Part shown: piece after piece, positions 55,322 through 62,567 of the stretch | Layout of the letters: the number at the start of each line of letters is the position of its first letter | Position numbering within the stretch: position 1 is the first letter of the stretch | NCBI RefSeq assembly: GCF_000317435.1 | Contig: NC_019751.1 | Coordinates: 5,146,001 to 5,210,000 of the forward strand | From: Calothrix sp. PCC 6303 | GTDB lineage: Bacteria; Cyanobacteriota; Cyanobacteriia; Cyanobacteriales; Nostocaceae | Direction: 5' to 3' | Length of the DNA: 64,000 nucleotides | Program-made: the position numbers and the translations under genes | The notes under the pieces: generated by a model | The model's database searches: none | Seen by the model: the letters and a program-made list of their open reading frames with translations, nothing else | What the model was told of the DNA's origin: nothing

Positions 55322-55576
55322 ATGTCAACCGAGAAGCAAGTACTTCCATTTTTTGTCCGCTACTTGGAAAATCAAGCTGAGGATATGTCGATTGAGGAAC
55401 TAAATGAGATTTCTGGTGGAAATGGTCAAGTTGTCACTATGGCTTATCCTTCTGATAGCGATACAGCAGATGGCGGATATTCTACAGAACAACCTAAAAG
55501 TCCTTTTGATATGCCCAAATTCTCTACCAACTTACCATTTCCTCAATTCGGTTATGGTTCTCCTTACATCAAATAG
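55322..55576 (+). CDS. Graspetide (microviridin-like) precursor peptide
   Basis: 84 residues. The leader has LPFFVRYLE (residues 8-16), the counterpart of the PFFARFL helix that microviridin ligases bind, followed by an acidic helix and ISGG (30-33). The core VTMAYPSDSDTAD (38-50) matches microviridin TxKYPSDxxx, but Lys is replaced by Ala41 and the second acidic partner by Thr48. Thr39/Asp45 and Ser44/Asp47 remain for two ester bonds. An unusual 34-residue tail follows (GGYSTEQPKSPF...FGYGSPYIK), rich in Pro, Phe and Tyr. The ligase gene follows after three bases. Confidence 0.88.
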   Translation: MSTEKQVLPFFVRYLENQAEDMSIEELNEISGGNGQVVTMAYPSDSDTADGGYSTEQPKSPFDMPKFSTNLPFPQFGYGSPYIK

Positions 55577-55579
55577 CAA

Positions 55580-56551
55580 ATGACGATTTTAATTATTACC
55601 CACAGTCAAGACAACCAATGTATTGATCGTGTAATGGACGCGATTATCGCTTATGGTGGAAAAAGCTGTTTCCGCTTCAATAGCGATCGCTTTCCCACTG
55701 AAATCCACCTTGATGTGTATTATGGTGGCAAAGAGGAACGTCACGTAATTACTGATGGTAATCACCATGTTGATTTAAATGAGGTTTCTGCTGTTTGGTA
55801 TCGTCGTGTGGCTATAGGTGCCAAAATCCCGGAAACCATGAATTCTCAACTTCGTGACGCTTCCCTGGGAGAATCCCGCGCTACTTTCCAAGGGATGTTG
55901 GCAAGTATTCGCGGGTTTCATTTAGATCCTTTGGAGAATGTCCGTCGGGCTGAAAATAAGCAGTTACAACTTCAAGTCGCACGGGATTTTGGTTTAAATA
56001 TTCCCCGAACTCTGATTAGTAATAATCCTGCTACTGTGAGGAAGTTTGCCGCTGAATGTAATTATCAAATTGTGACAAAAACTCTATCGTCTTTTGCTAT
56101 TTATAATAGCAAAGGTGAGGATCAGGTAGTTTTTACTAATCCGGTGACACGAGAAGATTTAGAAAACTTGGACGGTTTGCAGTTCTGTCCCATGACTTTT
56201 CAAGAGAATATTCCTAAAGCTTTAGAGTTACGAGTAACTATAGTTGGAAATCAGATATTTACAGCCGCAGTGGATTCACAGGTGATGAAAGAGGCTGAAA
56301 GTGATTGGCGGAAAAAAGGTTTAGCCTTAATCAATTCTTGGCAAGAATATCAATTGCCGGAAGATGTGGAAACTAAGTTACTACAATTAATGAGATATTT
56401 TGGCTTGAATTATGGAGCTATTGATATTATCTTAACTCCAGATGGTAAGTATTATTTTCTAGAAGTAAATCCAGTGGGTGAATTCTTTTGGTTGGAACAT
56501 AATCCCGGATTTAAGATTTCTCAAAGCATAGCTCAATTATTGCTAAAGTAA
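55580..56551 (+). CDS. MvdD/MdnC-type ATP-grasp graspetide ligase
   Basis: 323 residues. The N-terminal part (LIITHSQDNQCIDRVMDAI...VWYRRVAIG) and central NKQLQLQVARDFGLNIPRTLI are typical of microviridin maturases. The ATP/Mg block is GAIDIILTPDGKYYFLEVNPVGEFFWLE at the C-terminus, split here around residues 280-306. Such enzymes phosphorylate Asp/Glu side chains and join them to Thr/Ser (MvdD/MdnC) or Lys (MvdC/MdnB). Only one ligase is present; there is no acetyltransferase or transporter nearby. The gap to the precursor is three bases, so one transcript is nearly certain. Confidence 0.92.
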   Translation: MTILIITHSQDNQCIDRVMDAIIAYGGKSCFRFNSDRFPTEIHLDVYYGGKEERHVITDGNHHVDLNEVSAVWYRRVAIGAKIPETMNSQLRDASLGESRATFQGMLASIRGFHLDPLENVRRAENKQLQLQVARDFGLNIPRTLISNNPATVRKFAAECNYQIVTKTLSSFAIYNSKGEDQVVFTNPVTREDLENLDGLQFCPMTFQENIPKALELRVTIVGNQIFTAAVDSQVMKEAESDWRKKGLALINSWQEYQLPEDVETKLLQLMRYFGLNYGAIDIILTPDGKYYFLEVNPVGEFFWLEHNPGFKISQSIAQLLLK

Positions 56552-60391: not shown

Positions 60392-61042
60392 CTAAGGATT
60401 GCGTAAATATAATTTCTGGATAGCATTATTTTCAACTTGAGTACGAAAATTTTCCATCATTCCCAAAATTTCATTATGCAACTGTTGATATTCTTCACGA
60501 TCAAGTGATAAATACTCACCGTGAGCAATTCCATTTCTGCGTTTAAGTAATTGTTCGTTAATGATAACTTCCTTTGTTTGATAAAAAGAATAGTCCAAAC
60601 CCAGAAGACAGACAATTTCCCGCAAAATATCAGAAGATAAATTGGAACTTGTTGAAATTACATCTTCATAAGGAAGTGAAATTTTCTGACTTGTCTGAGT
60701 CAACATGAAATTGGCAACTTCTGTAAATATGGTTGCCTTATTTGTTTCACTTGCCTCCTTGAGTTTAAATTTCATTGCTACGGCTACAAAATTTATCGCT
60801 AGCTCCTCACAGGTTAATTGCTGTCTGGCAACAAATTCTAAATAACTAGTTGCAGCAGTTTTAATATATCCTTCCCAATTAGCATATAAAAGTGTTACTC
60901 CACTACGTAACACAGCATTATGTTTGCTAAGTCTAAAACTGTTAGTTTCTATCAAGCTTTTTAAGTCGGATATCTCTTTTCGTCTCCAGATTAAATCATC
61001 CGTTAGACGCTGATTTAAATGTTCCAACGTGCGAATTTTCAT
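60392..61042 (-). CDS. MAE_28990-like HEPN-domain protein (putative RNase)
   Basis: 216 residues, mostly helical. KRRNGIAHGEYLSLDREEY contains R-x4-H (R169, H174), the HEPN ribonuclease motif; the upstream LLYANWEGYIKTAATSYLEFV is the other conserved helix of the MAE_28990/MAE_18760 group. HEPN proteins of this kind cut RNA in toxin-antitoxin and abortive-infection systems. It overlaps the DUF262 gene by four bases (ATGA), so the pair is translationally coupled. It ends 86 bases before cheB, which has its own start. Confidence 0.85.
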   Translation of the reverse strand: MKIRTLEHLNQRLTDDLIWRRKEISDLKSLIETNSFRLSKHNAVLRSGVTLLYANWEGYIKTAATSYLEFVARQQLTCEELAINFVAVAMKFKLKEASETNKATIFTEVANFMLTQTSQKISLPYEDVISTSSNLSSDILREIVCLLGLDYSFYQTKEVIINEQLLKRRNGIAHGEYLSLDREEYQQLHNEILGMMENFRTQVENNAIQKLYLRNP

Positions 61043-62172
61043 GAGACAAAGAGTTTACGACCAAGAGGAATAAGCTGAGGTAATCTAGCTTTTGCATCTT
61101 TTCCTCGTCCAAAAGCAGATGTAAACTCTGGATTAGACCAAATTTCTATAATCTTGTTTTTTATATCTGAACAAGTTGCATTATATTGCTTATAGTTATA
61201 GCCAATTCCCAGAGCAATTGCTTCAAAAGGGGCTAACATAAAGCCTCCAGAAAACTTTTGTTTTGCAACATCATATTTTCTAAAACTGTCGTTACCCATA
61301 CATTCACCTAAAAGCTGGAATGTTTTTTCAAAAGCAGCTTTTTCTTCTTCCATGTCGAAATTATCATTGTTAGCTATTTCTTGAATTTTGTCTGTAAAAA
61401 ATGTATCTACATCAGGAATTTTACTAAGAGCGTTTTCATCGATATTTCGCAGCACTAAAAATCGACATAGAATTTCAACGTCATACTGTTCTTCCAGTGT
61501 TTTGTCACTTAAAGAAATACAAGACTGAAAATTTTCATCCGCACTTAGCTGTTTAATCCATCTATATAGTTTTGGATTTAAACTAACTAAAATACAGTTT
61601 CTCAATTCTTGAGGATTGGCTCTGGAACCTCCAGTGTTCAATCTTTGAAAAAGTTCATATTTAGCAAACGTATCGCTTTCTTTTAGTAGAATGTTAACAT
61701 CTATTTTAGCTCTTTTAATTAATAATCTTTGAGTTGGAGTTAACCCTTTGATAGAGCCATCTGGGTGTTCTTTATCTTCCCATATTTTACTAGTCAACGA
61801 AGGCAAATATTCAGTTTTTTGCAAAACTAAGGGAACAACCTGTTTGCCATTTTCATCTTTTAATATACCTACAAATTCATATATTGTAGATAGTCTTTGT
61901 AATCCATCCACTACATCCCAAATACCATCTTCTCGTTGAGACACAAAAATGGGTGGAATTGGTATACCTAATAGAATCGATTCGATTAATTTGGTTTTTT
62001 GATAATCAGACCAACGAAAAAATCTCTGAAATTCTGGATGAATTTCTATTTCTTCTTGTTGGTAGAGACTAATCAATTCTCCAATTGACATTGAGTAGTG
62101 ATCGGATCGGATTTCCTGCCTCTTTTGGTCAATTTCGGCTTGGAGTGTATCTACTTTTTCTCCGATATTCAT
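61039..62172 (-). CDS. DUF262 (ParB-like/GmrS-type) domain protein
   Basis: About 377 residues from ATG 62172; a TTG at 62187 is open. EIHPEFQRFFRWSDYQKTKLIESILLGIPIPPIF, VVDGLQRLSTIYEF and FQRLNTGGSRANPQELRNC are the DUF262 hallmarks; the DGxQR motif is the proposed NTP-binding or nuclease site. No DUF1524 HNH domain is attached. DUF262 proteins take part in restriction of modified DNA and other defence. The HEPN gene follows with a four-base overlap, which suggests that DUF262 either activates or restrains it. Confidence 0.88.
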   Translation of the reverse strand: MNIGEKVDTLQAEIDQKRQEIRSDHYSMSIGELISLYQQEEIEIHPEFQRFFRWSDYQKTKLIESILLGIPIPPIFVSQREDGIWDVVDGLQRLSTIYEFVGILKDENGKQVVPLVLQKTEYLPSLTSKIWEDKEHPDGSIKGLTPTQRLLIKRAKIDVNILLKESDTFAKYELFQRLNTGGSRANPQELRNCILVSLNPKLYRWIKQLSADENFQSCISLSDKTLEEQYDVEILCRFLVLRNIDENALSKIPDVDTFFTDKIQEIANNDNFDMEEEKAAFEKTFQLLGECMGNDSFRKYDVAKQKFSGGFMLAPFEAIALGIGYNYKQYNATCSDIKNKIIEIWSNPEFTSAFGRGKDAKARLPQLIPLGRKLFVS

Positions 62173-62567
62173 AACTATCGCTTCCAATATATTAAATGGT
62201 AAACATAATCACTAAGTATGTTGCTATGATTTGCAACACATCTTCTATTTTAGCGATCGCATGTTTGAACAAACCGATTCCTAAAACGTCTCCATCTAAT
62301 TGTATTCAGATCAAGACTTACGCACTCGGACATGTAAAATTCCATCACCCTCTGCTCTGTGTCTCCTAAACTTAAACTATTTTGGTTACAGGAAATGTGT
62401 TCAGTGTCAATACTACCCATAAATGAAAATCTATAAACAACAGGGTTTTGTATCGAAAAATTAAGGAATATTGCGATTCCCGTCAATAGTGATGGCAAAC
62501 CGCAAAAACTACCAAAAGTCCATGGTAGGATTGCTCTCGTTAATATGTCAGAAATGGGGGAAGACCT
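62173..62567. other. Spacer between the DUF262 gene and chlP
   Basis: No supported gene. A GACTTACGCACTCGGACATG segment near 62313 belongs to the TTACGCA repeat group. The chlP ribosome site GGGGGA is at 62556-62561. Confidence 0.5.

Follow-up and report, generated by a model that had tools for sequence, protein, structure and literature searches.

A probable minimal marinostatin-type graspetide locus with a single MvdD-type ligase in Calothrix sp. PCC 6303

The closest described systems to the locus studied here are those of marinostatin, a serine-protease inhibitor of marine Alteromonas, and of the microviridins. In marinostatin, esters reportedly join Thr3 to Asp9 and Ser8 to Asp11, the same spacing as in the present core. 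Its P4–P4′ segment is given as F-A-T-M-R-Y-P-S, with Met4 at P1 and a Ki of 1.5 nM (PMC9623506), and it is described as having the two lactones of a microviridin and no lactam (PMC13039773). The microviridin system comprises a precursor (MdnA/MvdE), an ester ligase (MdnC/MvdD) and an amide ligase (MdnB/MvdC); a review treats clusters without MdnB as normal and as likely to lead to marinostatin (PMC7823629).

The locus lies in the window, the whole 64,000-nucleotide stretch of Calothrix sp. PCC 6303 DNA that was analysed and to which all coordinates refer. It consists of two intact open reading frames, 3 bp apart, in which an 84-residue precursor is followed by a 323-residue ATP-grasp ligase. 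The features are as follows.

55322..55576, + strand: precursor peptide P0001, 84 aa (PF12559, Inhibitor_I10, 39.5 bits, cut-off 21; NF033738, microviridin/marinostatin, 35.5 bits, cut-off 26)
55322..55420, + strand: leader, residues 1–33, with the ligase-recognition helix LPFFVRYLE (equivalent of PFFARFL) and the double-glycine cleavage motif MSIEELNEISGG
55436..55462, + strand: core TMAYPSDSD, residues 39–47, with predicted esters Thr39–Asp45 and Ser44–Asp47 spaced as in microviridin and marinostatin
55472..55573, + strand: Pro/Phe/Tyr-rich C-terminal tail, residues 51–84 (34 aa), GGYSTEQPKSPFDMPKFSTNLPFPQFGYGSPYIK, with similar tails in relatives
55580..56551, + strand: MvdD/MdnC-type ATP-grasp ester ligase P0002, 323 aa (TIGR04184, MvdD, 515.6 bits, cut-off 475)

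With a precursor above both family cut-offs and an ATP-grasp ligase adjacent to it, the locus belongs to the graspetides, in the microviridin/marinostatin family. No second PF12559 precursor was found in a search of the whole genome. The flanking genes are unrelated housekeeping or signalling genes (DegT aminotransferase, DUF561, PAS/histidine kinase, CheR and CheB), and the cluster includes no transporter, acetyltransferase or protease, in agreement with the sequence-only reading that preceded this work. Around the related loci in three genomes (G171, G409 and G067), no common extra cluster gene was seen among open reading frames of at least 110 aa, whose translations were judged by eye. Elsewhere in the window, on the − strand (60392–62187), a HEPN-domain protein (RiboL-PSP-HEPN) adjoins a GmrSD_N protein, and the two are possibly a defence pair.

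In the leader, PFF and the following Leu show no variation among the aligned relatives. The leader ends in a canonical double-glycine motif, with GG at the same place in most relatives, and we infer that it is cut after Gly33. This double-glycine leader and the 34-residue tail are new here, neither having figured in the earlier reading. The core itself had been read correctly, numbering included: residues 39–48 (TMAYPSDSDT) retain the Thr39/Asp45 and Ser44/Asp47 pairs at canonical spacing, with Ala41 in place of the Lys and Thr48 in place of the second acid (Glu). The locus shares with microviridin the leader helix, the YPSD core and the MvdD/MdnC ester ligase; unlike microviridin, it is without the Lys, the second Glu, MvdC/MdnB, an acetyltransferase and a linked transporter, and known microviridins are without the long tail found in P0001. 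The likeness to marinostatin, which is drawn at the level of the peptide, extends to the TM-x-YPS core with Thr at P2 and Met at P1, the PFFARFL-type leader helix, the absence of the lactam Lys and, as predicted for the present peptide, two lactones. The two differ at P1′, which is Arg in marinostatin and Ala here, and in the 34-residue tail and cyanobacterial host of the present peptide.

The ligase is of the ester-forming type. P0002 falls below the cut-off of the MvdC model (TIGR04185, 313.4 bits against 425), and its closest structure in the PDB is that of MdnC (5ig9, E 1e-127). In a quick tree of 123 ligases, it falls among the 57 rows of the cyanobacterial MvdD fork (SH-aLRT 98) and apart from the fork of 58 MvdC rows (SH-aLRT 98); a phylogeny had been proposed as a check on the sequence-only reading, and it places the enzyme within the MvdD clade rather than among the amide-forming MvdC ligases. 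The contacts between MdnA Arg17 and MdnC Glu191, Asp192 and Asn195, as given in the review (PMC7823629), are kept here as leader Arg13 and P0002 Glu192, Asp193 and Asn196 in the alignment to 5ig9. A whole-genome search yielded no second graspetide ligase and no MvdC-type amide ligase, so that the earlier statement of a single MvdD-like ligase without an amide ligase holds genome-wide. The sole other match, at 28 bits, was rejected as a glutathione-synthetase-like open reading frame beside ftsZ, named by its sequence and its neighbour.

Since the only ligase is of the ester-forming type, no amide ligase is present and the core is without the lactam residues, a bicyclic product with two esters is expected. 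The sequence-only reading had proposed the same product, and it remains the best reading, predicted from the lone MvdD-type ligase and the two canonical ester pairs. As in the marinostatin type, the locus has Thr/Asp and Ser/acid pairs, a lactam position that lacks Lys and a genome without an MvdC-type ligase; with Ala41, Thr48 and no MvdC, it does not have the makings of a tricyclic microviridin. Because marinostatin has two lactones without a lactam, and in light of what the review says of clusters without MdnB, the product type is by analogy already known and should not represent new chemistry.

The bonds, processing and target of the peptide can be predicted from these sequences. The leader helix PFFVRYL would dock on the single MvdD-type ligase, which would activate Asp45 and Asp47 with ATP, and two omega-esters would close between Thr39 and Asp45 and between Ser44 and Asp47, each at the cost of one water (−36.02 Da in all). 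The calculated mass would thereby fall from 9348.35 to 9312.33 Da for the full precursor and from 5563.55 to 5527.53 Da for the part after Gly33. A lactam would not form, since the locus offers neither the Lys nor its acid partner and the genome has no MvdC-type ligase. Cleavage after Gly32-Gly33 and export of the product would then fall to a C39-domain ABC transporter whose gene lies away from the locus. The genome has eight C39-domain genes, of which four are strong; none of the eight is linked to the locus by position, and processing in trans by one of these C39 transporters is likely. The compact TMAYPS loop (Thr at P2, Met at P1, Ala at P1′) would mimic a substrate and so inhibit serine proteases of the subtilisin or chymotrypsin kind. 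Taken as a whole, this is very probably a minimal marinostatin-type graspetide locus, in which a single MvdD-type ligase gives a serine-protease inhibitor with two esters and no lactam that is exported through a C39 transporter in trans. With only two genes needed for a bicyclic protease inhibitor closed by esters, such a compact system would suit heterologous production and library work.

How the amide bond came to be absent is a separate matter. The sequence-only reading held that the donor and acceptor of this bond disappeared along with the enzyme, and a single coupled loss of the Lys, the acid partner and MvdC, giving a newly evolved bicyclic class, would agree with a first set of loci in which Lys-less cores were commoner at MvdD-only than at two-ligase loci (6/10 versus 4/46, Fisher p = 0.001, the loci being related by descent). 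A larger survey of 61 loci with both ligase and precursor (15 MvdD-only, 46 two-ligase) does not bear this out. Among the MvdD-only loci, 10/15 show one or more Lys-less cores, but the other 5/15 have Lys in all cores; conversely, 4/46 two-ligase loci have a Lys-less core, L041 and L052 being Lys-less beside both ligases. An independent-pair test with only 4–5 usable pairs, too few for a statistical proof, showed no trend linking Lys loss to the MvdD-only state, and marinostatin already has the form of the supposed new class. We therefore consider a coupled loss unlikely. The mixed states, in which MvdC is lost and Lys kept or the reverse, occur elsewhere in the tree, and none was found next to the ligase of the window.

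MvdC loss is frequent, and in raw counts it goes together with Lys loss. The MvdD-only ligases did not form a single clade when one was sought: the starred branches of the ligase tree force at least 5 changes between the MvdD-only and two-ligase states; a tree holding L001, L069, L029 and L037 together was not rejected (p-AU 0.397). The scatter of MvdD-only loci among those with two ligases makes repeated loss of MvdC probable, and the survey suggests several losses of the amide ligase within the cyanobacteria. Of the genomes with an MvdD-only locus, some (G171, G067 and G218–G220) also have a complete two-ligase locus at another site, and others (G061, G024, G025 and G221) lack MvdC altogether.

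A different doubt concerns the rings themselves. P0002 lies on a long branch (0.45–0.5), and of 119 MvdD columns that are nearly invariant it deviates at 6, with Met168Thr as the least mild change, so that an altered specificity is possible; core and tail contain further hydroxyl and acid residues, and a drifted ligase might, for instance, form one ester only, or extra esters through Ser46, Thr48, Asp50 or residues of the tail. The spacing of the core is canonical, however, the other 113 columns are kept, and the ligases are strict about the residues that they cyclise, according to the review (PMC7823629). P0002 looks functional in spite of its long branch, and we regard other rings as improbable. 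Decay from a two-ligase microviridin cluster to a remnant without any product, as the scatter of MvdD-only loci and the probable repeated loss of MvdC might suggest, is very improbable, given that both open reading frames are intact and above curated cut-offs, all ester residues of the core are kept and the same architecture is intact in other genera.

The locus also has counterparts in other cyanobacteria. The search for homologous precursors without Lys, another check put forward earlier, was successful: the MvdD-only relatives have cores such as TMRYPSDNED (L069) and TLAYPSDVD (L128–L130). Together with L029 and L037, these loci resemble the present one in their single MvdD ligase, Lys-less core, double-glycine leader and Pro/Phe-rich tail; L029 and L037 differ in having an extra Lys-bearing core, and the tails of all of them differ in detail. 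L128–L130, which come from another family of the same order, match the present locus in combining a single Lys-less core with one MvdD ligase, a DGG spacer and a tail of this kind. In the precursors of two further MvdD-only loci, L046 (Nostoc sp. KVJ20) and L131 (G210), the lactam position is filled by Ala or Arg and in no core by Lys.

Tails similar to that of P0001 are found in L029, L037, L052, L069 and L128–L130. Under a criterion of at least 20 residues with at least 7 Pro/Phe/Tyr/Trp, whose thresholds were set after seeing the data, tails were counted at 8/14 loci with a Lys-less core versus 0/47 loci with Lys in all cores. Tail content compared over precursors gave a Mann-Whitney p of 0.0013, a statistic that ignores relatedness. 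Tail presence needs only 3 changes on the tree, and few independent events therefore lie behind it. The literature passages covered, with the main graspetide genome-mining papers outside them, hold no description of such a tail, which may already be known. Tentatively, the Lys-less core with a Pro/Phe/Tyr tail could form a separate cyanobacterial sub-architecture of marinostatin type, in which the tail, rather than being waste, might belong to the active product or help to deliver it, for instance through surface retention or target contact. The recurrence of such tails with Lys-less cores, along with the repeated loss of the amide ligase, provides a natural series on what the third ring adds. 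Two precursors, L071 (G099) and L072 (G098), have a first core TLAYPSD followed by two Lys cores and a Pro/Phe-rich tail; they have no ligase within roughly 1.4 kb on either side, and each of the two genomes has a two-ligase locus at another site.
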